Shown here one piece after another: positions 3,881 through 39,700 of a stretch of DNA of 64,000 nt. The number at the start of each line of letters is the position of its first letter. Positions within the stretch are counted from its first letter, which is position 1. The translations under genes and the position numbers were made by a program. This DNA comes from Pseudomonas lalkuanensis (GTDB lineage Bacteria > Pseudomonadota > Gammaproteobacteria > Pseudomonadales > Pseudomonadaceae), in assembly GCF_008807375.1 (NCBI RefSeq), contig NZ_CP043311.1, positions 2,956,001 through 3,020,000 on the forward strand. Reading direction: 5' to 3'. Under the pieces are notes generated by a model. The model worked only from the letters and a program-made list of their open reading frames with translations, had not been told where the DNA came from and searched no databases.

Positions 3881-3890
3881 GGACATCGCC

Positions 3891-6312: not shown

Positions 6313-6313
6313 G

Positions 6314-7243
6314 ATGGCTGTTCTTGTAATCGCTGAACATCAAGGCGGCACTCTGGCTGCCGCCACCCTGAATACCGTGACCGCCGCACAACAGATCGAT
6401 GGCGAGGTTGTCGTCCTGGTAGCGGGGCAGGGCGTCAGTGCCGTGGCCGAAGCCGTTGCCAGGGTTGCGGGCGTGTCCAAGGTGCTGGTCGCCGACCACG
6501 CGGCCTACGCCCACCAACTGCCGGAGAACGTCGCGCCGCTGGTGACCTCCATCGCCAGCGACTTCAGCCACGTGCTGGCGCCGGCCACCACCAACGGCAA
6601 GAACTACCTGCCGCGCGTCGCGGCGCTGCTGGACGTCGACCAGATCTCCGAGATCATCGCCGTCGAGAGCGCCGACACCTTCAAGCGTCCGATCTACGCC
6701 GGCAACGCCATCGCCACCGTGCAGTCTTCCGCGGCCGTGAAGGTGATCACCGTGCGCACCACCGGTTTCGATGCCGCCGCTGCCGAAGGTGGTTCCGCTG
6801 CCGTCGAGGCCGTGGGTAGCGTATCCGATGCCGGCACGTCCGCCTTCGTCGGTGAAGAACTGGCCAAGTCCGACCGTCCGGAACTGACCGCTGCCAAGAT
6901 CGTCGTCTCCGGCGGCCGTGGAATGCAGAACGGCGACAACTTCAAGCACCTCTACGCCCTGGCCGACAAGCTGGGCGCTGCCGTGGGTGCGTCCCGTGCC
7001 GCGGTCGACGCCGGTTTCGTGCCGAACGACATGCAGGTCGGCCAGACCGGCAAGATCGTCGCGCCGCAGCTGTACATCGCCGTGGGCATCTCCGGTGCCA
7101 TCCAGCACCTGGCCGGTATGAAAGACTCCAAGGTCATCGTCGCGATCAACAAGGACGAAGAAGCGCCGATCTTCCAGGTGGCCGATTACGGCCTGGTGGG
7201 TGATCTGTTCGAGCTGGTTCCGCAACTGCAGGCCGCTCTCTGA
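6314..7243 (+). CDS. etfA: Electron transfer flavoprotein alpha subunit (309 aa)
   Basis: This is ETF alpha of standard length. The N-terminal domain begins [20 protein letters not shown]. The C-terminal FAD domain is complete with [34 protein letters not shown], the signature [17 protein letters not shown] and [16 protein letters not shown] at the end. FAD held here shuttles electrons from the dehydrogenases to the quinone pool. The gene follows etfB with a one-base gap and has a GAAGCGAAGGTGATCTG stretch as Shine-Dalgarno. The pairing with etfB makes the identification firm. Confidence 0.96.
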
Positions 7244-7257
7244 GCGCGCGGGAGACG

Positions 7258-8466: not shown

Positions 8467-8485
8467 AGTACGGGAGCGAAACAGC

Positions 8486-9721: not shown

Positions 9722-9830
9722 ATCTCCACTGGAAACTGCTGTTGCGCGCAGTGGAACAGTGCCCGGCCTGTTGCTATCGCCTGAACACTGCCTGGTCGCT
9801 CATCTTCCGTGAGATTGGTGCCGCACCGGA

Positions 9831-9845
9831 TTCCGTATGACGGAA
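9831..9845. promoter_or_regulatory. Perfect inverted repeat, candidate operator
   Basis: TTCCGT-ATG-ACGGAA is a perfect 6-bp-arm palindrome in the 209-bp gap between the CoA-transferase and the flavin oxidoreductase gene, 85 bp before that ATG. A TATAAC stretch lies at about 9886-9891. It resembles a dimeric repressor site; the regulator is not encoded next to it. Confidence 0.4.
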
Positions 9846-9930
9846 CAGCTGGCGCACGGACATTTCAACCATCAGGCGGGCGGCATATAACAGAACAACA
9901 AAGGCGATCTCAGAAATCGCGGAGTGCCTT

Positions 9931-15494: not shown

Positions 15495-15762
15495 AAAAGA
15501 CTGTCTCTTGGAACTGTTGGCGTCCAAGGCGCGCGGCGGCCTCTCCGACCGTCATATCCGCCTGCTGCTACAGGAGGTTTTCGACAGCACCCTGGCACGC
15601 ATGGCTCAGGAAGGTTGGAGCGGCGATGAGATCGACCAGTTGCGTTCAGCCTCGCTGCACTGGTTACGACACACATCGGCCACCTTCGATGCGCCCCATC
15701 GAGACATGAAGGATTTGCAGGCGGATCCCCGGCACGGGTCAGAGACCCAGAGGATGAGGTAA
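15495..15762 (+). pseudogene. Tyrosine recombinase C-terminal fragment
   Basis: The frame reads GLSDRHIRLLLQEVFDSTLA and then LHWLRHTSATFDAPHRDMKD. The HWLRHT block is the box-II catalytic H-x-x-R of a tyrosine recombinase. Upstream catalytic parts are absent, and the expected nucleophilic Tyr is not reached before the frame drifts into unrelated sequence ending QRMR. It is a fragment of a different integrase from the minus-strand relic that follows and faces it. Confidence 0.6.
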
Positions 15763-16256
15763 TGGTCACGTTGCCTAGGGGGCTCGGACGCTTGAAGTCC
15801 GGCCCCATAATCTCGACATACACCTTGCCCGGGGAAAGCGCCGATGCTGTCCACGTAGCGCAGTGCCGATTTGGCATCGCGCCAGCCGACATAGCCCATC
15901 AGGGCCTTTTGGTCCCAGCCACTGCGAGTCGCCCAGGTGGCGAAGCCGCGGCGCAAGGAATGGCTGCTGTACAACTCGGCCGGTAACCCGGCCCCTTGCA
16001 ACACTGTCCGCAGCAACGGGATCACGCTGTGCGGGTGCAGACCTTGTTCGCTCAGATGGCCCCAGCGATCAATGCCGCGAAATACCGGCCTGCGGGCGAT
16101 GCCGGCGACACTGATCCAGTCGCTGTAGGCCTGCATTGGACAAAGCCGGGCCAACGCCGGCGCCTGGTAGGTCTGCCCCTGGCTGTCGCGGTCGCCCTTG
16201 CTCCAGGGCAGGAACAACTGCATGCCCTCCCCCGGCCGCACCTGGATGTGCTCCAC
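15606..16256 (-). pseudogene. Site-specific integrase C-terminal remnant (copy 1)
   Basis: This is the catalytic half of a phage-type tyrosine integrase. GLHPHSVIPLLRTVLQGAG leads to SSHSLRRGFATWATRSGW (box II, H-x-x-R), GYVGWRDAKSALRYVDS and a final Tyr-bearing segment. The frame begins at MEHIQVRPGEGMQLFLPWSK. The natural coding sequence is broken just upstream (near 16275 the matching residues continue in another frame), and the N-terminal half is missing. A second copy of the same C-terminus, same strand and roughly 88% identical by eye, lies at about 33975-34200. The two bracket the accessory block between them. After the catalytic Tyr the frame runs on through non-homologous sequence. 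Confidence 0.7.
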
Positions 16257-16430: not shown

Positions 16431-16590
16431 ATGCCCGTTGATTTCACTTCGCCAGTTCGTCCAGAGCGCCTGAAGCAGATCAAGGAAGCCATGCATGATC
16501 TGTCGTAGGAATTGGCGAGAAAGGGCATCCAGCACCGGCTGAATCGCAACCTATTGGTGGAGATGGAAGCAACGTGGTCGATATGGCCAT
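16431..16590 (+). pseudogene. Small gene fragment with internal stop
   Basis: From ATG 16431 the frame reads MPVDFTSPVRPERLKQIKEA then MHDLS, hits TAG at 16506-16508, and resumes in frame as ELARKGIQHRLNRNLLVEME to a stop near 16590. The protein-like, helical sequence across the stop suggests a nonsense mutation in a small gene. I do not recognise the family. It lies between the integrase remnant and paaK. Confidence 0.35.
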
Positions 16591-16672
16591 AAGTCGGGAA
16601 GGGCATTCTTTTCCTCAGTGCTTACAGCCTCTGACGCTGGCTGTTGATGACAAAAACAATTTGAGTGAAACC

Positions 16673-17983
16673 ATGAATATGATTGCCAATACCGCCTTGC
16701 TTGACCCGATGGAGACTGCCAGCGTCGACGAGCTGCGCCAGCACCAACTGGAGCGCCTGCGCTGGAGCCTCAGGCACGCCTACGAGAACGTCCCGCTGTA
16801 CCGCCAGCGCTTTGATGAAAAAGGCGTGCACCCGGATGATCTGAAATCCCTGGAAGACCTGGCGAAATTCCCCTTCACCGGCAAGTCGGACCTGCGCGAC
16901 AACTACCCCTACGGCATGTTCGCCGTGCCGCAGAGCGAGATCGTGCGCATCCACGCCTCCAGCGGCACCACCGGCAAGCCCACCGTGGTCGGCTACACCC
17001 AGAACGACATCGACACCTGGGCCAACGTGGTCGCACGCTCGATCCGCGCCGCTGGCGGCCGCAAGGGTGACAAGGTGCACATCTCCTACGGCTACGGCCT
17101 GTTCACCGGCGGCCTGGGCGCCCACTACGGCGCCGAGCGCCTGGGCTGCACCGTGATCCCGATGTCCGGCGGCCAGACCGAGAAGCAGGTCCAGCTGATC
17201 CGCGACTTCCAGCCGGACATCATCATGGTCACACCGTCCTACATGCTGAACCTGGCGGACGAGATCGAGCGCCAGGGCATCGACCCGCACAAGCTGGCCC
17301 TGCGCCTCGGCATCTTCGGCGCCGAGCCCTGGACCGCCGAACTGCGCCGCGCCATCGAGGAGCGCATGGGCATCACCGCCCTGGATATTTATGGCCTGTC
17401 GGAAATCATGGGGCCGGGCGTCGCCATGGAATGCGCCGAGACCAAGGATGGCCCGACCATCTGGGAAGACCACTTCTACCCCGAGATCATCGACCCGGTG
17501 ACCGGCGAAGTGCTGCCGGATGGTCAGATGGGCGAGCTGGTATTCACCTCGCTGTCCAAGGAAGCGCTGCCGATGATCCGCTATCGCACCCGCGACCTGA
17601 CCCGCCTGCTGCCGGGCACCGCCCGCCCCATGCGACGCATGGACAAGATCACCGGCCGCAGCGACGACATGCTGATCATCCGTGGCGTCAACGTGTTCCC
17701 GACCCAGATCGAGGAGCAGGTGCTGAAGGTCAAGCAGCTCTCCGAGAACTACGAGATCCACCTGTTCCGCAATGGCAACCTGGACAGCATCGAAGTCCAT
17801 GTCGAACTCAAGCACGAGCACGACAACCTGGGTGAAAGCCAGCAGCAGGCCCTGTGCAACGAGCTGGGCAAGTACATCAAGACCTACATCGGCATCAGCT
17901 CGCGCATCGTCCTGCGCCCCAGCTACTCGCTAAAGCGCTCCGAGGGCAAGGCCTGCCACGTCTACGACAACCGCAATAGATGA
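16673..17983 (+). CDS. paaK: Phenylacetate-CoA ligase (436 aa)
   Basis: This adenylate-forming ligase converts phenylacetate, ATP and CoA to phenylacetyl-CoA, the entry step of the paa pathway. It shows the PaaK hallmarks: [20 protein letters not shown] at the N-terminus, the P-loop-like [67 protein letters not shown] and [20 protein letters not shown], then a C-terminal [12 protein letters not shown] with the catalytic Lys. I start at ATG 16673 ([11 protein letters not shown]), matching pseudomonad PaaK; the frame is open back to 16574 but the extension is non-family. No other paa core gene is in the window. The ligase stands alone after an integrase remnant, so it may be a transferred extra copy. 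Confidence 0.95.
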
Positions 17984-19488: not shown

Positions 19489-19863
19489 TCAGACTTCGCC
19501 GGCTTGGATGTTCCGCTCCAGTTGATCCAAGGCTTCTGAGTTCCTCGCCGCCCAGTCATACAGGGCCTGAAGTGGTTCAACAAAGGTCTCACCCAGCGGC
19601 GTTAGCGAATACTCCACCTTCGGTGGCACCACATTAAACACCTCACGCTTAACCAGGCCGGCGCTTTCCACCTCCCTTAGGGTCTGGGTCAGCATTTTCT
19701 TGGAGATGCCCGGTAGTGTCCGCTCCAGTTGGCCTGTGCGCATGGCGCTATGGCTCAGGGCATAGAGCACCATCGATGTCCATTTGCCATTTAACACGTA
19801 ATGAATACGTCGCTGCGGGCAGTTTTCTCGCAGCACGAAGTTTTCCGAAGATGAATTCGTCAT
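19489..19863 (-). CDS. HxlR-family transcriptional regulator (124 aa)
   Basis: This is a winged-helix HxlR/DUF24 regulator. It has ENCPQRRIHYVLNGKWTSMV (replacing the usual CP..L.LIGGKW), LERTLPGISKKMLTQTLREV as recognition helix, and EYSLTPLGETFVEPLQALYD. It keeps one N-terminal Cys (in NCPQRR) that in relatives senses electrophiles or quinones. I chose ATG 19863; the longer frame to 19929 runs into the operator region. It is transcribed divergently from a quinone oxidoreductase gene, the arrangement seen for QorR/YtfH-type regulators. It is probably self-regulated and closely resembles the second HxlR at 30896-31276. Confidence 0.9.
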   Translation of the reverse strand: MTNSSSENFVLRENCPQRRIHYVLNGKWTSMVLYALSHSAMRTGQLERTLPGISKKMLTQTLREVESAGLVKREVFNVVPPKVEYSLTPLGETFVEPLQALYDWAARNSEALDQLERNIQAGEV

Positions 19864-19935
19864 ATTGGTAACCAAAAGGTTCCTACGGAACAAAAAAGTG
19901 CCTACTTTCCAAAAAGTATCTACAGCCAATACGAT
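19864..19935. promoter_or_regulatory. HxlR operator/promoter region with repeated CCTAC-type motif
   Basis: Immediately upstream of the HxlR start are TTGGTAACCAA (palindromic core GGTTACC-like), GGTTCCTACGGAAC, AAGTGCCTACTTTCC and AAGTATCTAC. The phrase AGTGCCTACTT recurs exactly upstream of the second HxlR gene, at about 31329. The repeated AGTnnCTAC units look like binding sites for the regulator, controlling both itself and the divergent reductase. Confidence 0.5.
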
Positions 19936-20022
19936 GATAACACCATTCGGATCGCCACAATTTCAGGGGTCCGTGGAGTGCAGAGCATTTCTGCCACGCA
20001 TGCATCGATTGGAGAGTTCAAC

Positions 20023-21057
20023 ATGAAAGCAGCTGTCATTCGTGCCTTTGGCGGACCCGAGCAAATCCGCATCGAAGACATCCCCACTCCGACTCCCGGC
20101 CCCGGACAGGTGCTGGTCAAGGTACTCGCCGCCGGCATCAACCGCCTCGACCACTATGTCCGCCTGGGACAGATCAACCCCCACCTGCCCTTCCCCCATA
20201 TCCTGGGTTCGGACGCAGTGGGTGAAGTTGCCGAGCTGGGCGCCGGCGTCAGCCGCTTCGCGATTGGCGACCGAGTGATCGCCATGCCGGGCTACCCGAC
20301 CAACCCCGCCGAGGCGCATATCCGCCCGGTCACGGCGGCAGCGAGCTACGCGATTCCCGGCACCCATATCCAGGGCACCTATGCCCAGTACGCGGTCGTC
20401 CCCGAGGTTTGGCTGCTGCGCGACACGACTGGCCTGCCGGTGGAGCAGATCGCCGCCATGCCGGTGGCCCTGCTCATCGCGATCCGCTCGGTGCAGATCG
20501 TTGGCGAGGTCAAGGCGGGCGACCGGGTGCTGATCCATGCCGGAGCGTCGAGCACTGGCATCATGAGTATCCAGGTGGCCCGTGCGCTAGGCGCTCGCGT
20601 TGCAGTGACGGTACAGAACGAGGCCTCTGCCAAGCTGGCCAGAATGCTGGGCGCCGAACTGGTGATCGATTCGGGCAAGGAGGATTTCGTCCAGGCACTG
20701 GCCGCATGGACGGATGGCCGTGGCGTGGATGTGGCGATCGACAACCTGGGCGGCGACGTCCTGGCGCGCACCATAGAGGCCGTTAAGCCGCAAGGCATCA
20801 TTGTCACCATGGGTTTCATGGCTGGCCCCGAAGTGACCTTCGATATCCGCAACTTCTTCTTCACTCAGAAGCAGCTGCGTGGGACCCTGGTCGGTGATAT
20901 CGAGGACTTCGCCGCCTGGCTGGAACCCATCCGGGCGGGCAAGATCAAGCCGGTCATCGACAGCGTGCTGCCGCTTTCCGACGCGGCCCAGGCACACGAA
21001 AGGATTGCCGGCAACCAAGCTCGCGGGAGCATCGTCCTGCTGCCATGGGCGGAGTGA
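20023..21057 (+). CDS. Zinc-independent quinone oxidoreductase (MDR family, 344 aa)
   Basis: This is a medium-chain reductase/dehydrogenase of the NADPH:quinone reductase type. It begins MKAAVIRAFGGPEQIRIEDI, keeps the GroES-like domain with HILGSDAVGEVAELG, and has the cofactor loop RVLIHAGASSTGIMSIQVAR with the glycine pattern of a Rossmann fold. The structural-zinc Cys cluster of alcohol dehydrogenases is absent. It likely reduces quinones or enones with NAD(P)H and is divergent from the HxlR regulator, which supports a quinone or electrophile response. The ATG at 20023 follows GGAGAG. A RidA-like gene starts 26 bp after its stop. Confidence 0.87.
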   Translation: MKAAVIRAFGGPEQIRIEDIPTPTPGPGQVLVKVLAAGINRLDHYVRLGQINPHLPFPHILGSDAVGEVAELGAGVSRFAIGDRVIAMPGYPTNPAEAHIRPVTAAASYAIPGTHIQGTYAQYAVVPEVWLLRDTTGLPVEQIAAMPVALLIAIRSVQIVGEVKAGDRVLIHAGASSTGIMSIQVARALGARVAVTVQNEASAKLARMLGAELVIDSGKEDFVQALAAWTDGRGVDVAIDNLGGDVLARTIEAVKPQGIIVTMGFMAGPEVTFDIRNFFFTQKQLRGTLVGDIEDFAAWLEPIRAGKIKPVIDSVLPLSDAAQAHERIAGNQARGSIVLLPWAE

Positions 21058-21083
21058 GAACGGCCGATATTAAGGAGGCAGTC

Positions 21084-21554
21084 ATGCGCGATCTAACGCT
21101 GGAACGCCTGCACCACCTCGGCTGGCAGCTCCCTGCACCGCCCAAGCCCCTCGGGGCTTACCGGGCGGTGGTGGAGTCTGGGTCCATGCTGCATATCTCC
21201 ATGCAAGGTCCGGTTGTCGGCGGTAAACCCACCGTGACCGGGTTGCTCGGTAGGGAGGTTTCCATTGAGGAAGGCCGCCAGGCCGCGAGCCTCAGCGTGC
21301 TCAACTCGCTGGCACAGGCCCTCGGCCACCTGGGCAACCTCGACCGCATCGGGCAGGTGGTGCGTCTGGATGCCTATGTGGCGTGCGAAGAGTCGTTCAT
21401 CAGCCACCCGCAGGTAATCGACAGCGCCTCGGAGCTTCTGGCTCAGGTCTTCGAAGAACGCGCAGGTCACGTGCGCACGGTCTGTGGAGTTCGCAACCTA
21501 CCGGGCAACCTCCCAGTCGCCCTGGCCCTGGTTCTGGAGCTGCAGCCCGCCTGA
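21084..21554 (+). CDS. RidA/YjgF-family protein (156 aa)
   Basis: This belongs to the longer RidA-like group (about 155 residues). It has SGSMLHISMQGPVVGGKPTV, GRQAASLSVLNSLAQALGHL and the C-terminal HVRTVCGVRNLPGNLPVAL, where the Arg corresponds to the imine/enamine-binding Arg of RidA. It probably hydrolyses reactive imines or a related intermediate. A perfect AAGGAGG (21073-21079) sets the ATG at 21084, only 26 bp after the quinone reductase, so the two are probably co-transcribed. The substrate is unknown; this subgroup is often found in catabolic clusters. Confidence 0.85.
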   Translation: MRDLTLERLHHLGWQLPAPPKPLGAYRAVVESGSMLHISMQGPVVGGKPTVTGLLGREVSIEEGRQAASLSVLNSLAQALGHLGNLDRIGQVVRLDAYVACEESFISHPQVIDSASELLAQVFEERAGHVRTVCGVRNLPGNLPVALALVLELQPA

Positions 21555-21809
21555 GTTCTAGAGGGAAGCGTTTCAAGGCTGCCCCCTGCAACAGGGGGTG
21601 GTCGCTTGCCGAGAGGTGAGACGGGAGAATATCGGCGAAAGAAAGTTTGGCAGAGAGGCAAAAGCTTGAGGCACGCAGAGTAAAGCGGAACCTTGAGCAC
21701 TTAAGGAAAGAATAGAAGTCTGGGATGGCGTCCGCCCTCCACCGGCAGAATCCGTGCACAGGCTCTCCGGCGGAGAAGGTGTTCACTGCATTTGGTGAGA
21801 GGCGTGCAA

Positions 21810-22808
21810 ATGAACTCGACTCAGTTGTCTAAGACCGATACCAGCATCACCGGCGAATCCATTGGCGCTTCGACGGAGGCCTTTTTTGATGAGATTGAGG
21901 CATGGGAAGCCGCTGTCGAACACAGCTGCGCCCCGCTGCGGATCAGCCTGGACGCCAGTTGTCCGCTCAGGGCAAGGCTGATTGAGCAACGCTTCGAGGC
22001 ATTGCAACTCAGCCGGGTGACTTCGGTCGAGTGCCGCTGCGAGCATGACCGCCAGCACATTTCACAAAGTCCCGACGATGCCTTCCTCTACAGCCTGCAA
22101 TTGCAGGGCGAAGGCCAACTGGTACAGGGCGAGCGCAGCGTGGCGATTCGGCCCGGCGATGGCGTGCTCTATGACTGCAGTCGGCCCTTCCAGTGGACAT
22201 TCGCCGGCGATTTGCAGCAACTGGTTGTCCGCTTGCCGCGCGACCTGTTTCGCGGTCGGATAAACGACCCGGACAAATGCACGGCTCTGCGAATCGCCGG
22301 TGGCCAAGGCATTGGCCGTCTGCTGGCGGCACAGCTGCAATCCCTGTTGGATGAGCGCAACGCCATCCAGCCTGGAACCCGACGCTACGCGGCCGGAAGC
22401 ACAGTGGACCTGCTGGCGGGAGTGCTCAGCGAGCTGAGCCTCCAGGTGCCTGGCCCTGCCAGCAATCTCCAGACCTACCACCTCAATCGAGCCTATGCCT
22501 GCATCGCCGAACGCATCCGCCAGCCCGGCCTGGCTCCCGAAGCCATCGCCAAAAGCCTGGGCATTTCGCTGCGCTATCTGCACCAGTTGTTCCATGGCAC
22601 GGGCACGACGGTGGGCCGGTATATCCAGGATATGCGCCTGGATGGCTGCGCCCGCGAGCTGATCACCCTGCCCGCCCGCGCCCACTCCATCAGCGACCTG
22701 GCCTATTCCTGGGGGTTCGAGAATTCCGCCCATTTCAGCCGCGTGTTTCGCAACCGCTTCCAGCTCAGCGCACGCGAGTACCGAGCACAGCATTCGTTGC
22801 TCCGTTGA
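21810..22808 (+). CDS. AraC-family regulator, FeaR-like layout (332 aa)
   Basis: An N-terminal AraC-binding-like domain (about 45-200, with FLYSLQLQGEGQLVQGERSV and GDGVLYDCSRPFQW) is followed by a two-HTH AraC DNA-binding domain (about 225-330: LAPEAIAKSLGISLRYLHQL and ISDLAYSWGFENSAHFSRVF). This is the layout of FeaR, which activates phenylacetaldehyde dehydrogenase and amine oxidase genes in enteric bacteria, but homology was judged by eye only. It sits directly upstream of the aldehyde dehydrogenase and oxidase genes, so it is their likely activator. ATG 21810 is chosen over TTG 21792. Confidence 0.88.
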   Translation: MNSTQLSKTDTSITGESIGASTEAFFDEIEAWEAAVEHSCAPLRISLDASCPLRARLIEQRFEALQLSRVTSVECRCEHDRQHISQSPDDAFLYSLQLQGEGQLVQGERSVAIRPGDGVLYDCSRPFQWTFAGDLQQLVVRLPRDLFRGRINDPDKCTALRIAGGQGIGRLLAAQLQSLLDERNAIQPGTRRYAAGSTVDLLAGVLSELSLQVPGPASNLQTYHLNRAYACIAERIRQPGLAPEAIAKSLGISLRYLHQLFHGTGTTVGRYIQDMRLDGCARELITLPARAHSISDLAYSWGFENSAHFSRVFRNRFQLSAREYRAQHSLLR

Positions 22809-22894: not shown

Positions 22895-23198
22895 AAGAGC
22901 TGCGGCGTCACTGGCCATCAAGAGCGCAACCCTGTGTCAAGTCTCGCCAGAATGCTGCCTCATGGTCGTCGATTCTGCGTCGGTATCTACGCACGTCGCC
23001 CCGGGTCGCAGCCTCAAGGCATTCGGTGAGTCATTAAATCCCGCGCGGACGAGTACCGCCGGACATGGCGCCGCCCCAAAGAAATCGGGGCGCGCTCAGC
23101 CAGACCTCCTCGCCAAGCCTGGCCTCCGGCCTGGTCCGCATCGAAAGCTTCCGATCCGGGGAGGGTTTCTACCTAGTGCAAGCAAGAGGGAATACGTC

Positions 23199-23963
23199 AT
23201 GAAAGTTCTTGGCTACAAGACCGGTCCTATCCAGGCAGAGGCAGCCTTCACCTCCGACTTTGCCCTGGACGACAGCATTTCCACGCAGGACATCGTCAAC
23301 ATGCTGGAGCGTGAACGCCCCAACATGGACATCCGCCCCGGCATGCGGCACAAATACACGCCGCTGCGCTTCGATTCCGCCACGGGGACCAAGTACATCG
23401 GCGGGCGTTACCTGTTCGACACCTGGGAGAACGTGCTCGACTACAACCACTTCACCAACGAGGAGCTGTTCCCGGCGCCTGGCGTGAAGTTCTGGGAACG
23501 CTTCATCGACGTCAACAAGCACTACTGGAAGGTGACCGGGGCGCATGACTTCAAGCCCATGGCCACCTCGCACCACATCAACCGCTTCGAGCGCTACTCC
23601 TTCACCAGCAGCAAGGTCGAGGAACTGCTCAAGCAGGTGTGGCCAACAATCCGTGACGACGCTGAAAAGCAGGGCCTCTCCAGCGTCTGGCTGATGTTCC
23701 AGCCGGAAGAGAAGGAAATCGGCATCATCACCGTAGGTGAGAAGACCAGCGATGCCGACCCGGCCGTGGCGGCCTCCCGCGGACTCGCACGGCTGGAGAA
23801 TGCCCAGCCATTCGGTCGTCACTTGCCGGCGGAGCTCGGACTGGCCAAGCTCCTGGACCGCACCAGCCTAATCATCTCCTCGTGGCTGCCGGAGTCCCGC
23901 GCGCTTGGCGGTGCGCACTCCTCCTTTGACATGTCCCCGCCGCACCCACAACCGAAGCTGTAA
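23199..23963 (+). CDS. Unknown protein with YdhR/ABM-like halves (254 aa)
   Basis: I do not recognise a named family. Two stretches look like dimeric alpha/beta-barrel monooxygenase-type (YdhR/EthD) units. They are residues about 60-115, with TKYIGGRYLFDTWENVLDYN, and about 135-190, ending SSVWLMFQPEEKEIGIITVG. It is rich in Trp, His and Tyr, which would suit a heme or aromatic ligand, but this is inference. ATG 23199 follows AAGAGGG; the frame is open to 22962 with non-native sequence. It sits between the AraC regulator and an aldehyde dehydrogenase, behind the shared 73-bp element, and is followed by a strong terminator. A role in the same aryl catabolic route is therefore likely. Confidence 0.7.
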   Translation: MKVLGYKTGPIQAEAAFTSDFALDDSISTQDIVNMLERERPNMDIRPGMRHKYTPLRFDSATGTKYIGGRYLFDTWENVLDYNHFTNEELFPAPGVKFWERFIDVNKHYWKVTGAHDFKPMATSHHINRFERYSFTSSKVEELLKQVWPTIRDDAEKQGLSSVWLMFQPEEKEIGIITVGEKTSDADPAVAASRGLARLENAQPFGRHLPAELGLAKLLDRTSLIISSWLPESRALGGAHSSFDMSPPHPQPKL

Positions 23964-24089: not shown

Positions 24090-25565
24090 ATGAGCACTTC
24101 TCGTCCCACCTATCAGAACCTCGAACTCCAGATGATCGCCGGCCAATGGCGTGCCGGCAGTAGTAGCCGCCAGTTGGACGTCATCAACCCCTTCGACCAA
24201 GAACTGCTGGCCAGGCTGACCTTGGCAAACAAGGACGACCTGGAGCATGCGTTTCTGAAGGCTCGTGAAGCCCAGGCTTCCTGGTCGGCAAAGGGCCCCG
24301 CAGAGCGGGCCGAAGTATTGCTCAACGTCGTCAGGATCTTCGATGAGCGCCGCGACGAAATCATCGACTGGATCATCCGGGAGTCAGGCAGCACGCGGAT
24401 CAAGGCCGAATTCGAATGGGGCGCGGCTCGGGCGATTACCCTGGAGTCAGCCAGCCTGCCGAATCGCGTCCATGGGCGTATCGTCGAGTCCGATGTCCCA
24501 GGCAAAGAGAGCCGCGTCTATCGCGCGCCTCTGGGTGTAGTTGGTGTGATCAGCCCCTGGAACTTTCCCCTCCATCTGACCCAGCGATCCATTGCACCCG
24601 CCCTCGCCCTTGGCAATGCAGTGGTAGTCAAACCGGCAAGCGATACACCTGTGACGGGCGGCCTGCTGCTGGCGAGGATCTTCGAAGAAGCGGGGCTTCC
24701 GGCTGGCGTGCTGAGTATCGTGGTAGGTTCCGGCGCTGAAATTGGTGACGCCTTCGTCGCGCATCCGGTTCCGGCTCTCATTTCCTTCACGGGTTCCACC
24801 GAGGTGGGTCGGAATATCGGACGGATCGCCAGCGGAGGCCAGCACCTGAAGCAGGTTGCACTGGAACTCGGGGGCAACGCGCCGTTCGTGGTACTGGCCG
24901 ATGCGGATCTTGAACAAGCCGTGCGCGCCGCGGTGGTTGGCAAGTTCCTTCACCAGGGGCAAATCTGCATGGCCATCAACCGGATCATCGTTGAAGAGCC
25001 GCTTTACGAGGCGTTCACTAGGCGTTTCGTCGAGCGCGTGAAGTCGCTGCCATATGGTGATCCGAGCAGACCCGACACGGTTGTCGGCCCCGTCATCAAC
25101 TCCCGGCAACTGGAGACGTTGCAAGCCAAGGTCAGCAAAGCCAAGGCCGAAGGCGCTGTCACATTGGTAGAAGGACTGGCCGAGGGCAACGTTCTTCCCC
25201 CCCATGTGTTCGGGGAGGTAACCCCCGAAATGGACATCGTGCGCGAAGAGATCTTTGGCCCCCTGGTCGGGATACTTCGTGCCAGGGACGCTGAACACGC
25301 CCTGGAACTCGCCAACGACACCGAATACGGCCTCTCCAGTGCCGTTTTCACGGCGAGCCTGGAGCGCGGCGTGCAGTTCGCTCGCCGCATCCGCGCCGGC
25401 ATGACCCATATCAACGATATTCCGGTCAGCGATGCGCCGAACGCACCCTTCGGTGGTGAGAAGAACTCCGGCATCGGTCGTTTCAATGGCGATTGGGCCA
25501 TCGACGAATTCACGACGGTTCACTGGATCACCGTACAGCGCACACCTCGACACTATCCGTTCTGA
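24090..25565 (+). CDS. Aldehyde dehydrogenase, aryl-aldehyde type (491 aa)
   Basis: This NAD(P)-dependent aldehyde dehydrogenase has the standard motifs: [46 protein letters not shown], the Glu in [12 protein letters not shown], the catalytic Cys in [14 protein letters not shown], and [10 protein letters not shown]. The segment around [12 protein letters not shown] and QICMAINRI resembles benzaldehyde/vanillin dehydrogenases rather than the FeaB group. It would oxidise an aromatic aldehyde to the acid. The ATG is preceded by GAGGGAGGA. It has its own terminator downstream at 25603. A second, different aldehyde dehydrogenase is 2.7 kb downstream, so the cluster can handle two aldehydes. Confidence 0.9.
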
Positions 25566-25898: not shown

Positions 25899-27149
25899 AT
25901 GCCCATCGATTTCACCCTGACGTCGTCTCAGGTCGAGCTTCAGCAACGCGCCCGCCAGTTCGCCAAGCGCACCCTCAGCCAGGTCACCGAAGTCATCCGC
26001 CACCTGCCAACTCCGGAGGATCGCTTTCGGGCGACCCGCCCCTTCTACGAGGAACTGGTTCGCGAAGGCTTCATGCAACGGTTGATCCCCCAGCCATTTG
26101 GTGGCGGCGGCACCGGCATGGTCGACATGGCCATAGTCGCCGAAGAGTTCTACACGCAAGACGTCAGTGTTCCCCTGACCATGTTCGCCAACCTGCTTGG
26201 CCTGATGCCCTTGTTCCTGGCTGGCACACCTGAGCAGCAGCGACACTTCATTGGTCCATTCCTCGAACGCTCCGGCGCCCCCCTCGCCGCGCTCGCATCG
26301 ACCGAACCCGGCGGCAGCGCCAATTACCGCTCTGCCGCCACGGGTGGTGGAGTCCGGACGCAAGCCGTGCTGGAGGGCCAGGAGTGGGTGATAAACGGCA
26401 CCAAGCAATGGGTGTCCAGCGCTTCGGGCTGGGATGGGAAAGGCGCCGACCTACTTAGTGTCGTGTGCCGGACCGATCCGCTTGCCGCACCGGAGCATGG
26501 CGTTTCCGTAATCCTGGTTCCCGGACCGGCGCAAGGTTTTACGGCAAACCGCGCCCATGAATCTGCCGGGCATCGCGGCCATATGACCTGCAACTTCAGC
26601 CTCCTCGAAACGCGAGTCCCGCAAGAAAACGTCATCGGCGAAGTCGGACGGGGACTGGATCTGGTTGACGCCAGCTTTTCACCCACTGCTGCACTGGTGG
26701 GTGTCATGTCCCTGGGGGTCATGCGCGCCGCGTTCGACTTCGCCCTGGACTTCGCGAAGACCGAACGACGCGGTGGCGAGGCCACGATCATCAATCACCA
26801 GGCTGTGGGTTATGCCCTGGTCGATGCCAAGGCCGCCATCGAAGCTGTCAGGAGCCTCAGCTACCGGGCCTGTTTCGCGCTGGACCAGCAGGATCCCGAA
26901 GCCTTCGAACTGGCCCTCCACGCGAAAGTATTCGGCTCAGAAACCGCCGTACGGGTCATTACCGAGCTGATGCGCGTGGTCGGCATCGAAAGTTATGACC
27001 ACCTGAGTTCCCCGCTTGCCGGCCTGCTGCAGGACGCCCTCGCCTTTCCCCTGTTCGATGGCGGAAACATGGGTGTGCGGCGCCGCCAGCTCCACGAGCT
27101 CATGCGGCAGGACGGCTACGATTCGACGGCCACGATCTTCCATCCGTAA
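25899..27149 (+). CDS. Nitroalkane-oxidase-like flavoprotein of the acyl-CoA dehydrogenase superfamily (416 aa)
   Basis: The fold is that of an acyl-CoA dehydrogenase, but the sequence follows fungal nitroalkane oxidase. It has ASTEPGGSANY, SGWDGKGADLLSVVCR, and near the end FPLFDGGNMGVRRRQL. In the Fusarium enzyme the base is an Asp seven residues before a key Arg; here Asp387 and Arg394 sit in the same pattern, where acyl-CoA dehydrogenases have Glu (Y-E-G-T). Nitroalkane oxidases turn nitroalkanes into aldehydes or ketones, nitrite and peroxide. Start is ATG 25899 behind TTGGAGAG. Its neighbours are aldehyde dehydrogenases and an outer-membrane transporter, consistent with aldehyde production. 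The substrate is inferred, and a plain dehydrogenase role cannot be excluded. Confidence 0.78.
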   Translation: MPIDFTLTSSQVELQQRARQFAKRTLSQVTEVIRHLPTPEDRFRATRPFYEELVREGFMQRLIPQPFGGGGTGMVDMAIVAEEFYTQDVSVPLTMFANLLGLMPLFLAGTPEQQRHFIGPFLERSGAPLAALASTEPGGSANYRSAATGGGVRTQAVLEGQEWVINGTKQWVSSASGWDGKGADLLSVVCRTDPLAAPEHGVSVILVPGPAQGFTANRAHESAGHRGHMTCNFSLLETRVPQENVIGEVGRGLDLVDASFSPTAALVGVMSLGVMRAAFDFALDFAKTERRGGEATIINHQAVGYALVDAKAAIEAVRSLSYRACFALDQQDPEAFELALHAKVFGSETAVRVITELMRVVGIESYDHLSSPLAGLLQDALAFPLFDGGNMGVRRRQLHELMRQDGYDSTATIFHP

Positions 27150-27209
27150 CCCCCACCTGAAGCCACTGACGTTGCCACACAAATAAATCCAAGAAAGTGA
27201 GTCGCAACA

Positions 27210-28136
27210 ATGAAAGACAAGAACGCCCCCGTTCAAGCTCCACCGTCGTTCCAGACTTCAAACCAGGTGAAACTCCTGATACGCATGCTCCTGCTACTCT
27301 GCGTCTTGCGAGGCACGGCTGCCAATGCAGGTGTCATCGCCACCGATCCCGGCGATTACGTCGCCTTTCCCGCCGGCACTAACCTGGCCGTGCTGTACTA
27401 CAACCACGCCGAGCGTAATGACGTTTACTTGAACGGCCACAAGCAAGACGTGCCTGGCTTTGGGCTGGACAACGACATAGCGGCATATCGTGCCGTGCAT
27501 TACATGCAGCTCGGACCGTTGTTGGCTGCTCCTCAGGTCATAGTCCCGTTCGGCAGCCTGAGAATGAAAGGAGCTTCCGACACAAGCGCCAGCGGTGTGG
27601 GCGATCCCCTCATCGGCAGCGCGTTCTGGCTCATCAACGATCCTACACACAATCGCTACCTGTCGTTCGGCACCTGGGTCGCCCCTCCCCTCGGCAACTA
27701 CGACGCTGACGATGGTCCAGTCAACATCGGTGAGAACCGATGGAAAGGTGTTCTCCACACGTCTTACACGCAGTCGCTGTTCGGGAACCTCTCGGGCGAA
27801 GTCACCGCAGAGTGGGATTTCTTCGGCGAGAACGACGACTTCGCCGGGATGACCCGCAAGCAGTCCCACATCTTCGAGCTGCAAACCCACCTTCGCTACG
27901 ACTTCTCGCCAGGCAACTTCGTCGGTGCGAGCTACTACCACACGACAGGCGGCGAGAATCGCCTGAATGGAGTCGACCTTGATGATTCGCTCAATACGAA
28001 GCGCTACCTGCTGTCGGTTGCCCGCATGGTCGCCCCGACCGTGCAGCTGATGGGCCAAGTGGGCCAGGACCTGGAGGTGCGCAACGGCCCGAAGGAAGAC
28101 TTCCGCGTCAGCTTGCGCCTGGTCAAGATTTTCTGA
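27210..28136 (+). CDS. MetA/SphA-type outer-membrane transporter (308 aa)
   Basis: This belongs to the phenol MetA-pathway family of outer-membrane channels found in aromatic and hydrocarbon catabolic clusters. An N-terminal signal (MLLLLCVLRGTAANA, cleavage after ANA) is followed by GVIATDPGDYVAFPAGTNLA, then amphipathic strands such as HIFELQTHLRYDFSPGNFVG. It ends DFRVSLRLVKIF with the C-terminal Phe typical of beta-barrels. I kept ATG 27210; ATG 27285 would give a cleaner signal peptide. It follows the nitroalkane-oxidase-like gene by 60 bp and precedes the FeaB-type gene by 93 bp, so the three may be one operon importing and oxidising the same substrate. Confidence 0.82.
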   Translation: MKDKNAPVQAPPSFQTSNQVKLLIRMLLLLCVLRGTAANAGVIATDPGDYVAFPAGTNLAVLYYNHAERNDVYLNGHKQDVPGFGLDNDIAAYRAVHYMQLGPLLAAPQVIVPFGSLRMKGASDTSASGVGDPLIGSAFWLINDPTHNRYLSFGTWVAPPLGNYDADDGPVNIGENRWKGVLHTSYTQSLFGNLSGEVTAEWDFFGENDDFAGMTRKQSHIFELQTHLRYDFSPGNFVGASYYHTTGGENRLNGVDLDDSLNTKRYLLSVARMVAPTVQLMGQVGQDLEVRNGPKEDFRVSLRLVKIF

Positions 28137-28229
28137 CTCCCCGCTTTCCAGATCACCCGCCATTACTGCCGCTGGCGCTGTTTCGCTGCGAAACGAGGCG
28201 GCTCCGGCTTAATCAACATGAGGTCCGAT

Positions 28230-29720
28230 ATGAGCAAGATTGAAATCCTGCCGCAGGTTGCGGCATTCCTGGGGCGCCGCCACGGCTGCTTCATCGACGG
28301 CCGCTGGGTACTGCCGGAAGGTCCGACCACGCCGGTGTTGAACCCCGCCACCGGCGAAACCATCGCTTGCGTGCCGGACGTGCCGCTGGACTATCTGGAA
28401 CAAGCGGTGCAGTCGGCGTTCCAGGCATTCGAGTCCCGCGTGTGGTCCGGCCTGCGTCCGGCCGACCGCGAGCGCATCCTGTTGCGCTTCACCGCCCTGG
28501 TGGAGGAGCACGCCGAAGAGTTGGCTCAGTTGGAAACCCTGAACCAGGGCAAGTCGATCAACATCTCGCGCATGCTGGATGTGGGCGCCACCGTCGAGTT
28601 CATGCGCTACATGGCCGGCTGGGCGACCAAGATCGAAGGCCAGACCTTGGACGTGTCGATCCCGATTCCGCCGGGCTCGCGCTTCACCGCCTTCACCCGC
28701 CGTGAGCCGGTGGGCGTGGTGGCCGGCATCGTGCCGTGGAACTTTCCGTTGATGATTACCGCCTGGAAGCTGATGCCGGCCCTGGCCTGCGGTTGTACCG
28801 TGGTCATCAAGCCGGCCAGCGAAACCCCGCTGACCGCCCTGCGCCTGGCCGAGTTGGCCATCGAGGCGGGCATCCCGGCCGGCGTGTTCAACGTCATCAC
28901 CGGTGGCGGCAGCACCGTGGGCAATACGCTGGCTTCACACCCGCTGATCAGCAAGGTGTCCTTCACCGGTTCCACCGCCGTGGGCAAGAGCGTCGGCGTG
29001 GCCTGCATGGCGAACATGACCCGCTTCGCCCTGGAGCTGGGCGGCAAGAACCCGATGATCCTGCTGGACGATGCCAACGTGGAGAAGGCCATCCAGGGCG
29101 CGCTGCTGGGCGGCTTGCTGAACAGCGGCCAGGTGTGCGCCGCGGCCTCGCGCTTCTACGTGCACCAGTCGCGCTACGAAGAGTTCGTCCAGGGCCTGGC
29201 CGCCGCCGTGAAGGGCCTGTCCATTGGGCCAGGCATCGACCAGACCGCGGCGATCAACCCGCTGGTATCGCGCAAGCAGCAGCAAAGCGTGCAGAGGCAC
29301 ATCGAGTTGGCTCGCCGGGAAGGCGCCCGCGTGGTAACGGGCGGAGAGGAGCTGGATGTAGAAGGCTTCTACGTCCAGCCCACCGTGCTGGCTGACGTGA
29401 ACCACGACATGACCGTGGCCCGCGAGGAGGTGTTCGGCCCGGTGCTGTCGGTGATCCCCTTCACCGACGAGGACGCCATGATCGAACTGGTCAACGACAG
29501 CCCCTACGGCCTGGCGGCGAGCCTGTGGACCAACGACCTGTCCAAGGCGATGAACCTGGTGCCACGCATCGAGGCGGGCACCGTCTGGGTCAACGCCCAC
29601 GTGCTGTTGGATCCGAGCATGCCCTTCGGCGGCGTCAAGCAGTCCGGCATGGGCCGTGAATTCGGTCGGGCAGTAATCGAGAGCTACACCGAGCTGAAAT
29701 CGGTGTGCATCGCCCACTGA
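28230..29720 (+). CDS. feaB: Phenylacetaldehyde dehydrogenase-type aldehyde dehydrogenase (496 aa)
   Basis: This aldehyde dehydrogenase closely follows the FeaB/PadA layout. It has RPADRERILLRFTALVEEHA, QLETLNQGKSINISR, EPVGVVAGIVPWNFPLM, ELGGKNPMILLDD, the catalytic Cys in LNSGQVCAAASRFYV, INPLVSRKQ, EEVFGPVLSV and AGTVWVNAHVLLDPSMPFGG. It would oxidise phenylacetaldehyde to phenylacetate, the substrate of PaaK encoded 11 kb upstream. GAGG six bases before ATG 28230 decides this start over ATG 28218, and gives the same length as FeaB. A perfect terminator follows. Other arylacetaldehydes are possible substrates. Confidence 0.9.
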   Translation: MSKIEILPQVAAFLGRRHGCFIDGRWVLPEGPTTPVLNPATGETIACVPDVPLDYLEQAVQSAFQAFESRVWSGLRPADRERILLRFTALVEEHAEELAQLETLNQGKSINISRMLDVGATVEFMRYMAGWATKIEGQTLDVSIPIPPGSRFTAFTRREPVGVVAGIVPWNFPLMITAWKLMPALACGCTVVIKPASETPLTALRLAELAIEAGIPAGVFNVITGGGSTVGNTLASHPLISKVSFTGSTAVGKSVGVACMANMTRFALELGGKNPMILLDDANVEKAIQGALLGGLLNSGQVCAAASRFYVHQSRYEEFVQGLAAAVKGLSIGPGIDQTAAINPLVSRKQQQSVQRHIELARREGARVVTGGEELDVEGFYVQPTVLADVNHDMTVAREEVFGPVLSVIPFTDEDAMIELVNDSPYGLAASLWTNDLSKAMNLVPRIEAGTVWVNAHVLLDPSMPFGGVKQSGMGREFGRAVIESYTELKSVCIAH

Positions 29721-29826: not shown

Positions 29827-30789
29827 CTAGCTCTCACCACCATGGAAAGCCGGAAGCACCTCAGCAGCCAATTCCTCCAGCACATCTCGAAGCTCGCGCC
29901 CGGTGGCCGACAGGTTGAGTGAGACATGGTGTGTGCCACTGGCCCGCATGTCTTCAAGCAAGGCCACCAGGGCCTTGCGGCCCGTACGATATCCAAGCGG
30001 AATGGCTGCTGCAGGCTCATCCGAGTCGGCGCTGAGGTCCACTTTCAAGGCGACTCCGAAAGCACGGAACGCGCTTGGAGCTGATCGCCCTACAGCATCA
30101 CGCCATAGTTGGTAGCGATCTCGCTGCTGCTCCGGCTCCCGGTGGTAAGTGATCCAGCCGCACGCGTTACGGGCGATCCAGTCGAGGCTTTGACCGCCTG
30201 AGCCTACTGCCAGCATGGGCACCGCATCGGACAACGCTGGAAGTAGGCAGAACTCAGGCGCATCCGGCGTCGCTAGGTCCGGTATGACACGGGATGGCGC
30301 ACGAATGGCTGCGGCAACGACTTCCCAGTTATGCCGGAACAGCGTGCGCCGGTCGTCCGTGTTCTTGCCCAACGCTGCATATTCCGGCGGGCGGTCGCCG
30401 GACCCCAGGCCGAGGATGAAACGGTCATGGGACAAGGCGCTGGTGGAAATGGCCGCTTTCGCAATGTGCAGCGGATGCCGCAAGGTCAGCACAATAGCTC
30501 CGCTGACGAGCGCGATGCGCCGGGTCTGCGCTGCCAGCGCTCCCAGCAGGACCCAGGGGTCCAGGTGCCCGACCGGGTCGGGGTAGTCGGCGCTGTTGAG
30601 CGGGACGTCACGAATCCACAGCGCGCGAAAGCCCAATTCGTCCGCAGCTCTCGCCAGCTCAAGCTGGACGTCGAGGTCAGGCACGGTTTGCCCTGGCTCG
30701 AGCATCGGCAGCGCAAGGCCGATCGTCAATTGCCCATCGCGAAATACGTGCTGGAAATGGGTGTCCTGTTCTGCCAACTCATTCTTCAT
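29827..30789 (-). CDS. LLM-class (luciferase-like) flavin oxidoreductase (320 aa)
   Basis: This TIM-barrel luciferase-like protein has LTIGLALPMLEPGQTVPDLD, ELGFRALWIRDVP, RRIALVSGAIVLTLRHPLHIAK, LSHDRFILGLGSGDRPPEYA and a C-terminal ALVALLEDMRASGTHHVSLN. Members use FMNH2 or F420 for oxygenation or hydride transfer; pseudomonads make no F420, so FMNH2 is likely. It is about 107 bp downstream of, and on the same strand as, the second HxlR regulator, which may control it. The substrate cannot be read from sequence; nitrogenous or sulfur organics are common for relatives. Confidence 0.85.
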   Translation of the reverse strand: MKNELAEQDTHFQHVFRDGQLTIGLALPMLEPGQTVPDLDVQLELARAADELGFRALWIRDVPLNSADYPDPVGHLDPWVLLGALAAQTRRIALVSGAIVLTLRHPLHIAKAAISTSALSHDRFILGLGSGDRPPEYAALGKNTDDRRTLFRHNWEVVAAAIRAPSRVIPDLATPDAPEFCLLPALSDAVPMLAVGSGGQSLDWIARNACGWITYHREPEQQRDRYQLWRDAVGRSAPSAFRAFGVALKVDLSADSDEPAAAIPLGYRTGRKALVALLEDMRASGTHHVSLNLSATGRELRDVLEELAAEVLPAFHGGES

Positions 30790-36792: not shown

Positions 36793-39700
36793 TTACCATT
36801 GATAACCGACGCCGACGGAGACACCGACCTCGCCCTGGGAATCCGCGCTGCCCTGCAGCTTGGTTACCCACTTGCCGTTGTCGGAGATCCGCGATACGCC
36901 CACCGCCAGCGACGATTGACCGCGGTAATTGCCGAACCCCACCGCTGCCATGCTGGCACCAGGACTGTAGGGTTGCGGCAGGCTGGCCATGGCCATGGCG
37001 CCGGCGATGCCCGCACTGAGCTGATCATCCAACTCGTTGAGGTCATGGCGCAGGCCATTGACCTGGGCATCGGTGTAGGCGTTGGCACTGTTGGTGATGT
37101 CCGCCACGCTCTTGTTCAGTTGGCCGAGGTTCACCGCATCGGTTTCGACAGTACCGGCCGCGACGTTGGTGATCTGCCGCTCAGCACCTGCACTGCCCAC
37201 CGAGACGCTGTTTTCACGATCAGCCACCGAGTTGGCGCCAATGGCCACCGAGTTGCGGCTTCTGGCCTTGGCATTGGAGCCAATGGCGGTGCTGTTGTCA
37301 GCGACCGCTTCGGCACCGGCGCCGCCAGCGGTGGAGTGTGCGCCGGTGACCTTGGGCTTAGGCAGACGGCTGGTGTTGTTCACCTGGAACATGCCATCCG
37401 TGCCGTTCTGGATGTTGGTGACATCGCCCTCGACCTTGCTCACGCGGTTATCGACGTTGACCACGGTGTTGTTGATGGCCTTCACCGAGTTGTCGGTGTA
37501 GGCCTTCGACTCCGCGACGGCGCCGTCGAGCTGACGCAGGTTCACGGCGTCGGTGGCTTCCTTGCCGTCAGCCACATTACTGATGGTGCGGGTCTCGCCA
37601 GTTGCCGCGTTGCCTACCGACACAGTGCCGACGCTGGCATTTGCCGCGTTGGAGTACTTGCCGGTGTAGGTCTCGGCACCACGCCCGTTGTCGCTGGCAC
37701 CCTGCCCCAGGGCCATGCTGCCATCGGCCAAAGCTTTGGCACCGTCCCCCATGGCCATGGAGCCTTTACCGCTGGCCTGAGCGTTCGGGCCAATCGCCAC
37801 CGAGTCCAGACCGCTGGCTACCGAGTCGGCCTTGGTGGAGTTGGCGTGGAAGTACTTGATGCCGCCGCCATTATTGATGTTGGTGATGCTGCCTTCGATG
37901 TTGGTCACGCGACCGTCGATGTTGGTGACACGCTCGTTGGTCTCGTTGAGCTGCGACATGTTCACCGCGTCGCTGTCGGCCTCGCCGCGAGCGACGTTGG
38001 TGATCTTGGTGCCGCCCGTCGTGGTCACGCTGTTATAGGTAGGACCTCCCAGGGTGATGCGGTTGTGGGTGCTGTTGTCATACATCACTGCGTCTGCGAC
38101 GGAGCCACTGGTAATGGCTTTCAGCTGTGCGACGTTGACCGCATCGGTATCGTCCGCTCCCGCCGACAGGCCGGTGATGCGGCGATTGCCAATGTTCACC
38201 TCGCCGGTGGCGGTGCCGCCCACCAGGTAGGCCTGGTTGCCCAGGGTGCTGCCATCCGCGACGGAACCAGCGCCCAGGGCGACGCTGCCGTCATGGCTGG
38301 ATACCGCGCCCATGCCGATGGCCACCGAGTCCACGCCCAAAGCGACCGAGTCAGTGCCGGTGGAGTTGGCGTGGAAGTATTTGGTACCGGTCTCGTAGAC
38401 GTTGGTCACGCGGCCGTCGAGATTGGTCACATCACCCTGCAGGGTGGTGACGTCGCCTTCGACGTTGGTCACACGGCCATCGAGGTTGGTGATGTTGGTG
38501 GTATTGGCGTCCACTTGCTGGTTGGTCGCATACAGCTGCGAGCCGTTGACCGCATCGACGGAGGTCGCGTTGACCGCACCGGCTGCCACGTTGGTCAGCA
38601 CCTGCGCGCTGCCCGGGTTGCTGGCATCGCCGCCGGAAGCGATCAGCGACAGCTGATCCGTACCCGTGCGCTGTACCGGACCGATGGTGCCATTGTCGAT
38701 ATTGGTAGTGAGGTTATTGATGTTGGTGGTGAGGTTGGTGACGCTGGTGTTGGTCTCGTTGAGCTGAGACATGTTCACTGCGTCGCTGTCAGCCACGCCA
38801 TTGGCCACGTTGGTGATGGTAGTGCCGCCAGTGTGGGTGCTGTTGTCGTAGGTGGCGCCACCCAGGGTGATGCTGTTGTGGGTGCTGTTGTCGTACATCA
38901 CCGCGTCAGCCACCGAGGCAGAAGTAACAGCCTTGAGCTGTGCGACGTTGACCGCATCGGTATCGTCCGCACCGGCCGACAGGCCGGTGATACGGCGGTC
39001 GCCAATGTTTACCTCGCCAGTGGCGGTGCCGCCCACCAGGTAGGCCTGGTTGCCCAGGGTGCTGCCATCCGCGACGGAACCAGCGCCCAGGGCGACGCTG
39101 CCGTCATGGCTGGATACCGCGCCCATGCCGATGGCCACCGAGTCCACGCCCAAAGCGACCGAGTCAGTGCCGGTGGAGTTGGCGTGGAAGTATTTGGTAC
39201 CGGTCTCGTAGACGTTGGTCACGCGGCCGTCGAGATTGGTCACATCACCCTGCAGGGTGGTGACGTCGCCTTCGACGTTGGTCACACGGCCATCGAGGTT
39301 GGTGATGTTGGTGGTATTGGCGTCCACTTGCTGGTTGGTCGCATACAGCTGCGAGCCGTTGACCGCATCGACGGAGGTCGCGTTGACCGCACCGGCTGCC
39401 ACGTTGGTCAGCACCTGCGCGCTGCCCGGGTTGCTGGCATCGCCGCCGGAAGCGATCAGCGACAGCTGATCCGTACCCGTGCGCTGTACCGGACCGATGG
39501 TGCCATTGTCGATATTGGTAGTGAGGTTATTGATGTTGGTGGTGAGGTTGGTGACGCTGGTGTTGGTCTCGTTGAGCTGAGACATGTTCACTGCGTCGCT
39601 GTCAGCCACGCCATTGGCCACGTTGGTGATGGTAGTGCCGCCAGTGTGGGTGCTGTTGTCGTAGGTGGCGCCACCCAGGGTGATGCTGTTATGGGTGCTG

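Follow-up and report, generated by a model that had tools for sequence, protein, structure and literature searches.

Here we describe a gene cluster in a stretch of 64,000 nucleotides from Pseudomonas lalkuanensis (contig NZ_CP043311.1, positions 2,956,001 to 3,020,000; this whole stretch is called the window). Its gene at position 25899 probably encodes a bacterial nitroalkane oxidase (NAO) of the acyl-CoA dehydrogenase (ACAD) fold, the Fusarium type, which would feed an arylacetaldehyde to a neighbouring aldehyde dehydrogenase (ALDH2), PaaK and the paa pathway, and nitrite to NirB. The placement of the protein in the NAO clade is strong, by sequence, tree and catalytic residues, and NAO chemistry is likely; 2-phenylnitroethane is a tentative best guess at the substrate. 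Descent and catalytic residues are thereby well supported, while activity and substrate are what we infer.

Results

The protein carries the ACAD domains PF02771, PF02770 and PF00441 (Pfam), and its best matches among solved structures are the NAOs 3mkh (288 bits) and 2c0u (276 bits), compared with 165 bits for the best ACAD. An earlier interpretation made from the DNA letters (the sequence-only reading) had proposed a nitroalkane-oxidase-like enzyme on the basis of two motifs, FDGGNMGVRR and GWDGKGADL, and placement in the NAO clade bears this out. Both motifs are present, starting at residues 386 and 177, the first supplying Asp387 and Arg394. In a MAFFT alignment to the Fusarium enzyme these two residues fall on Asp402 and Arg409, which gives the Asp-x6-Arg pattern that had been claimed, and S173 falls on Ser171; D402, R409 and S276 are the residues named in the PDB titles of the Fusarium entries. 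The column of Asp387, which we take to be that of Glu376 in MCAD numbering, holds glutamate in 14 of the 16 aligned ACAD rows (5 of 8 fetched ACADs of the host genome and 11 of 71 distant ones), aspartate in one and alanine in one. The assertion that ACADs have glutamate at this position is therefore right for most of them, and the alignment check proposed alongside it puts Asp387, not glutamate, in that column of the window protein. Within the 27 rows of the NAO clade, aspartate occupies the catalytic column in 23 and arginine the 409 column in all 27, against none of the 16 ACADs for the arginine. Asp387 alone was rejected as an NAO marker, as an ACAD of the host itself (L006, on a long branch; locus and genome labels are our own) also has aspartate there; because one ACAD in 16 shares the aspartate and none the arginine, it is the two residues together that are diagnostic.

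The tree recovers a 27-row NAO clade (support 100/99) that includes the fungal enzymes, and the window protein and fungal NAOs lie within a 16-row clade with support of 100/99. The predicted structure (pLDDT 87.8), a check that the sequence-only reading had suggested, agrees: the ten top Foldseek chains are all NAOs, with TM scores of 0.91-0.93 and, in the fold alignments, 36-40% identity to the solved enzymes. Fold comparison was nonetheless rejected as the deciding test, since ACADs score almost as high.

That near-tie, and the two ACAD rows that also do without the glutamate, might recommend an ordinary ACAD donating electrons to an electron-transfer flavoprotein (ETF). We hold this to be very improbable in view of the sequence matches, the tree, Arg394 and the missing ACAD glutamate. 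Furthermore, the gene set conserved in the genus (below) includes no acyl-CoA ligase or hydratase, and ETF-like genes occur at 0 of 24 NAO-clade loci compared with 6 of 71 ACAD control loci, an absence that fits an oxidase, if weakly. Scarcely credible is a group D flavin monooxygenase of the ACAD fold (DszC/HpaB-like, dependent on a flavin reductase): the weak match to the DszC model (20.8 bits against a cut-off of 850) is far below the NAO match, and although L109 has a flavin reductase-family gene at a distance of 2.2 kb from its NAO gene, none is found among the ten window proteins scanned.

Relatives of the NAO clade vary at the same columns. One NAO-like subclade (L014/L023 in genome G087, L029, L044, L109) has glutamate in the catalytic column and retains the NAO arginine, residues that would place it chemically between ACADs and NAOs. 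A sister clade with aspartate and glutamine, here the 'paired' type, occurs as pairs at L022, L112, L113, L115 and L124 and singly at L024, mostly accompanied by a regulator of the winged-helix or Rrf2 type, which sits between the genes or next to them. A FeaR-like gene lies within 5 kb at none of its 6 loci, the Shinella one starting 5.4 kb from the pair.

Positions 25899-29720 are filled by three co-directional genes (Table 1) encoding the ACAD-superfamily flavoprotein, a PF13557 outer-membrane protein, matching the outer-membrane transporter that had been read there, and ALDH2. An alternative TTG start at 25848 would lengthen the NAO-like reading frame, which stops at 27149. A FeaB-type or phenylacetaldehyde dehydrogenase had been claimed for this place, and the nearest solved relative of ALDH2 is indeed the phenylacetaldehyde dehydrogenase 4o5h (536 bits), followed by 4qyj. 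PaaK, said to lie 9 kb upstream, starts 9.3 kb and ends 7.9 kb before the NAO start, and it passes the TIGR02155 equivalog cut-off (728 bits against 646.3). Elsewhere the genome holds paaA, and it also has nirB; no copper amine oxidase (PF01179) was found in this genome or in those of two same-genus carriers of the NAO gene (0 of 3). Since ALDH2 is nearest to a phenylacetaldehyde dehydrogenase, PaaK passes its model, paaA and nirB are in the genome and copper amine oxidase is missing from it, the simplest path would run from 2-phenylnitroethane through phenylacetaldehyde and phenylacetate to phenylacetyl-CoA.

The AraC regulator at 21792 was not mentioned in the sequence-only reading. FeaR is the top NCBIfam model for all ten regulators tested, with 104-184 bits; because every score is below the cut-off of 199, we call them FeaR-like and not FeaR. 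They are mutually 25-52% identical, except for two close pairs. StyD is likewise the best model for the NAO-adjacent aldehyde dehydrogenases of the window, L027, L028 and L109.

Both same-genus relatives keep the order FeaR-like regulator, NAO, PF13557 protein and ALDH2 at 66-90% identity (ALDH2 at 89-90%). Genes for an HxlR regulator, an alcohol dehydrogenase and RidA adjoin the cluster in both (67-85%), as a block inverted relative to the window. ALDH1 and the gene at 22962 were rejected as core parts, being missing between regulator and NAO in both relatives; the identity of the aryl-aldehyde dehydrogenase that had been coupled to the enzyme is borne out, the nearest solved relative of ALDH1 being the 4-hydroxybenzaldehyde dehydrogenase 9jw2. 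Homologs of HxlR, the zinc-dependent alcohol dehydrogenase, RidA and an LLM-class oxidoreductase are found near NAO-like genes both in the window (19489-21554 and 29827-30789) and on a distant Sulfitobacter plasmid (L112, 473-3657).

Conservation was counted within 5 kb of the gene at 24 loci of NAO-clade relatives, the window itself being uncounted (at L018, L019, L025 and L026 the sequence on one side falls short of 5 kb; L032, truncated by a contig end, is outside the tree and the tally). A FeaR-like gene was present at 18 of the 24, against none of 71 distant ACAD controls and none of 40 ACAD controls from the same genomes. For an ALDH2-like gene the corresponding figures were 8/24, 1/71 and 3/40, and for a PF13557 homolog 4/24 (L018, L019, L108, L123), 0/71 and 0/40. 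L018 and L019 hold near-identical NAOs from one genus, and without them the counts are 16/22 for FeaR and 6/22 for ALDH2. As distant controls we took those of the best 80 among 585 candidates that were ACADs; as they include many metagenome-assembled genomes and other phyla, the same-genome places were added (span 5.5 kb; for 37 of the 40, no less than 3.8 kb was covered on both sides). The recurrent neighbours of the relatives are thus a FeaR-like regulator and an aldehyde dehydrogenase. Pimelobacter simplex and Rhodococcus wratislaviensis have little beyond regulator, NAO and a StyD-like aldehyde dehydrogenase, the second with what is by eye a LysR-type gene too. At the Novosphingobium locus L107, PaaK lies 5.3 kb from the NAO gene, with paa genes nearby.

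A FeaR-like regulator with a FeaB/StyD-like dehydrogenase, both under their model cut-offs, recalls the phenylethylamine pathway of Escherichia coli, FeaR/TynA/FeaB, in which TynA stands where the window has the NAO-like enzyme. It could be that the enzyme is an amine oxidase replacing TynA in a pathway of this kind, or a CoA-independent oxidase of another carbon acid, the more so as copper amine oxidase was missing from the three genomes above (other types of amine oxidase or dehydrogenase were not searched for). We think this quite improbable: the catalytic Asp/Arg pair is that of NAO, the alpha C-H of an amine is insufficiently acidic for such base chemistry, and a few relatives have aldoxime-nitrile or nitrite reductase genes as neighbours.

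Those few relatives are as follows. After its NAO gene, Agrobacterium tumefaciens AF1/95 has a FeaR-like regulator, an AraC regulator, an aldoxime dehydratase, an ABC transporter, an amidase, a PF13557-like transporter, nitrile hydratase alpha, a beta-like stretch missing from the gene table and an accessory protein. In genome G573 the distance between the NAO gene and an aldoxime dehydratase is about 0.2 kb; next come an amidase and both nitrile hydratase subunits, alpha and beta, these three scoring above their cut-offs. AF1/95 and G573 make up 2 of the 24 loci, and the aldoxime-nitrile query genes of the two had no match in the 71 control loci. Aldoxime dehydratase (PF13816) is over cut-off in 10 of 22 NAO-holding genomes or plasmid records. 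A 17-kb island of Shinella contains two paired NAO-like genes, ribA, nirB, nirD, cysG, a FeaR-like regulator, an aldehyde dehydrogenase, an NAO-clade gene, a second FeaR-like gene and a PF13557 protein, among others. The paired genes of Sulfitobacter occur with ETF, a truncated haemoglobin, a haem protein (PF11534) and an Rrf2 regulator beside the pair.

The same neighbourhoods bear on the possibility that the NAO chemistry is right and the nitroalkane another one, either aliphatic (for example nitro-methylbutanes from leucine or isoleucine) or an arylnitromethane whose benzaldehyde would pass to ALDH1. The aldoxime dehydratase of AF1/95 matches the OxdA model, an aliphatic one (672.7 bits, cut-off 600), and that of G573 shares 78% identity with it; AF1/95 and Shinella both also hold a set of acyl-CoA ligase, thiolase and enoyl-CoA hydratase genes within the same stretch; and the closest relative of ALDH1 points to the arylnitromethane. 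On the other hand, ALDH1 is absent from its place in both same-genus relatives, which keep ALDH2 closely, and StyD is the best model for most of the adjacent dehydrogenases scanned. We judge another nitroalkane unlikely, though a good deal less so than any of the alternatives above.

The NAO gene is rare and scattered. Within the genus it occurs in 3 of 18 genomes, the window's own among them; in the phylum in 4 of 398 sampled genomes, of which one is the window's own and one (G433) has the paired type only; in the order in 2 of 341, again the window's own and G433; and in the order of G386 in 5 of 347, one of them (G668) with the paired type only. Among 72,556 plasmid records 21 match (E 1e-55), from Agrobacterium, Allorhizobium, Rhizobium, Bradyrhizobium, Novosphingobium, Shinella, Sulfitobacter, Paraburkholderia and Rhodococcus. 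Sulfitobacter and one Rhodococcus hold the paired type, and the five Paraburkholderia matches (33-34%) carry no clade assignment; 10 of the 21 were fetched, and the other 11 are outside every tree and tally. The database label is 'acyl-CoA dehydrogenase family protein' in 16 of the 21 records, four having no feature at that place and one being unannotated. Such a patchy, often plasmid-borne spread would fit horizontal transfer of a catabolic trait.

The protein at 22962 has no Pfam, NCBIfam or PDB (solved-structure) match, and its sole plasmid homolog (56%) sits in an uninformative neighbourhood on a Streptomyces plasmid. Directly upstream of PaaK, an open reading frame at 15606-16256 resembles, by eye, the C-terminal part of a tyrosine recombinase and may be the boundary of acquired DNA. 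A separate cluster at 572-11937 looks, again by eye, like fatty-acid-type degradation (ACADs, SDR, thiolase, CoA transferase), with ETF genes at 5563-7243. Finally, a repetitive frame of 1492 amino acids at 36793-41271 resembles by eye a trimeric autotransporter adhesin and has a frame of 1158 amino acids running antisense through it.

Table 1. Genes of the NAO-like cluster and its surroundings, in window coordinates
Feature	Position	Strand	Basis and remarks
NAO-like flavoprotein, 416 aa	25899..27149	+	ATG start; solved-structure search, alignment, tree, fold model
PF13557 (Phenol_MetA_deg) putative outer-membrane channel	27210..28136	+	Pfam; 60 bp downstream of NAO
ALDH2, phenylacetaldehyde dehydrogenase-like	28218..29720	+	81 bp downstream of PF13557 gene; nearest solved relative, profile models
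ALDH1, aryl-aldehyde (4-hydroxybenzaldehyde) dehydrogenase-like	24090..25565	+	Nearest solved relative; outside conserved core
Protein of unknown family, likely start 23199	22962..23963	+	Outside conserved core
FeaR-like AraC regulator (AraC_binding_2 + HTH_18)	21792..22808	+	Pfam, NCBIfam; recurrent near NAO
RidA/YjgF-like protein	21045..21554	+	Pfam; synteny
Zn-dependent alcohol dehydrogenase/quinone-oxidoreductase-like	19978..21057	+	Pfam; synteny
HxlR-type regulator	19489..19929	-	Assigned by eye; divergent from the gene at 19978; both same-genus relatives have a homolog
PaaK, phenylacetate-CoA ligase	16574..17983	+	TIGR02155; not conserved beside NAO in relatives

Discussion

NAOs work through abstraction of a proton by a base, the reduced FAD then reacting with oxygen. 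In the window protein Asp387, supported by Arg394, would deprotonate a primary nitroalkane at its alpha carbon; the resulting carbanion would attack N5 of FAD and the adduct would reduce the flavin, nitrite leaving and the aldehyde being released; and oxygen would re-oxidise FAD, so that the overall products would be aldehyde, nitrite and hydrogen peroxide. An FAD N5 adduct is formed by the Fusarium enzyme, according to one study (PMC3509576). The aldehyde in this strain would most likely be an arylacetaldehyde, which ALDH2 would oxidise to phenylacetate and PaaK convert to phenylacetyl-CoA, the paa pathway using the carbon and NirB the nitrite. The FeaR-like protein would presumably sense the aldehyde or the substrate, and the PF13557 protein would admit the substrate.

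Several observations weigh against this pathway. The column of Fusarium Ser276 holds T263 in the MAFFT alignment; the hydroxyl is retained, both serine and threonine are found across the NAO clade, and Ser276 is not known to be essential for membership. ALDH2 is below the equivalog cut-off of StyD (NF045735; 678.5 against 850), for which reason we term it phenylacetaldehyde dehydrogenase-like only, and the regulator at 21792 is under that of FeaR (NF007243; 183.5 bits against 199). Two of the six NAO-adjacent dehydrogenases scanned, those of L108 and L114, score best for aminobutyraldehyde dehydrogenase and not StyD, as an aliphatic nitroalkane would have it. The 16 loci in which no ALDH2-like gene is retained nearby outnumber the eight that keep one, and at L107 (11339-15755) the NAO-adjacent aldehyde dehydrogenase is split by IS66-type insertion-sequence genes. 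PaaK was rejected as a conserved neighbour, being within 5 kb at 0 of 24 loci. The aldoxime link rests on relatives, as no PF13816 match was found in the window's genome (G000) or in G003 or G015, and the relatives with aldoxime clusters may use aliphatic substrates. At genome level PF13816 is over cut-off in all 4 genomes that hold an NAO-clade gene and in 15 of 342 others (Fisher p 7e-6; G668, which has the paired type only and no PF13816, is left out), a weak link because three of the four genomes belong to a single genus where PF13816 is frequent (9 of the 21 genomes with a match). All the same, the pathway remains a plausible idea, and one better supported by relatives than the sequence-only reading knew.

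The closest characterised systems are the NAOs (EC 1.7.3.1) of Fusarium oxysporum (PDB 2c0u, 2zaf, 3d9d) and Podospora anserina (3mkh), with which the window protein has in common the ACAD fold, the DGGNxGxRRR motif, the equivalents of Asp402 and Arg409, and the clade; the GWDxKGADL stretch is as in Fusarium. It differs in being bacterial, in its 36-40% identity to them and in having threonine for Ser276, and its gene stands in a catabolic-looking cluster with a regulator, a porin-like gene and an aldehyde dehydrogenase. The mechanism of the fungal enzymes is well studied, but we know of no natural pathway for them. Nitronate monooxygenases and 3-nitropropionate enzymes belong to a different family from NAO. 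In bacteria they release nitrite from aliphatic nitro compounds, with nitrite reductase downstream, as PMC9552603 describes. We found no bacterial NAO of the ACAD fold and no bacterial use of phenylnitroethane in the titles and abstract openings of the literature searched, whose coverage leaves out most subscription journals.

Aldoxime-nitrile clusters of plant-associated bacteria comprise Oxd, nitrile hydratase or nitrilase, and amidase, according to a review (PMC8955678) whose main text has no occurrence of 'nitroalkane' or 'nitro compound'. Two NAO-clade relatives sit in such clusters, and the two routes may share acid end-products, although the window's own genome has no aldoxime dehydratase in the PF13816 search. 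Among plants, Erythroxylum treated with jasmonate gives off both benzyl cyanide and phenylnitroethane while phenylacetaldoxime builds up in it (PMC5050915), so that aldoximes, nitriles and nitro compounds occur together. A bacterium with both a nitro and an aldoxime arm could bring the whole compound family to the same acid.

With a regulator, a candidate transporter, a route for the product and plausible natural substrates all provided in bacteria by the cluster, what NAO is for can now be tested directly. Several bacterial phyla may possess, though we advance this with some hesitation, a dedicated 'nitro arm' for breaking down plant volatiles, running alongside the aldoxime-nitrile pathway. 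In it an NAO controlled by a FeaR-like regulator would hand nitro compounds derived from amino acids (2-phenylnitroethane in this strain, aliphatic compounds in others) to an aldehyde dehydrogenase, while the nitrite would be assimilated. If so, this would be the natural role of NAO; genes now labelled only 'acyl-CoA dehydrogenase family protein' would be reassigned, and plant-associated bacteria would gain a way to consume defence volatiles.

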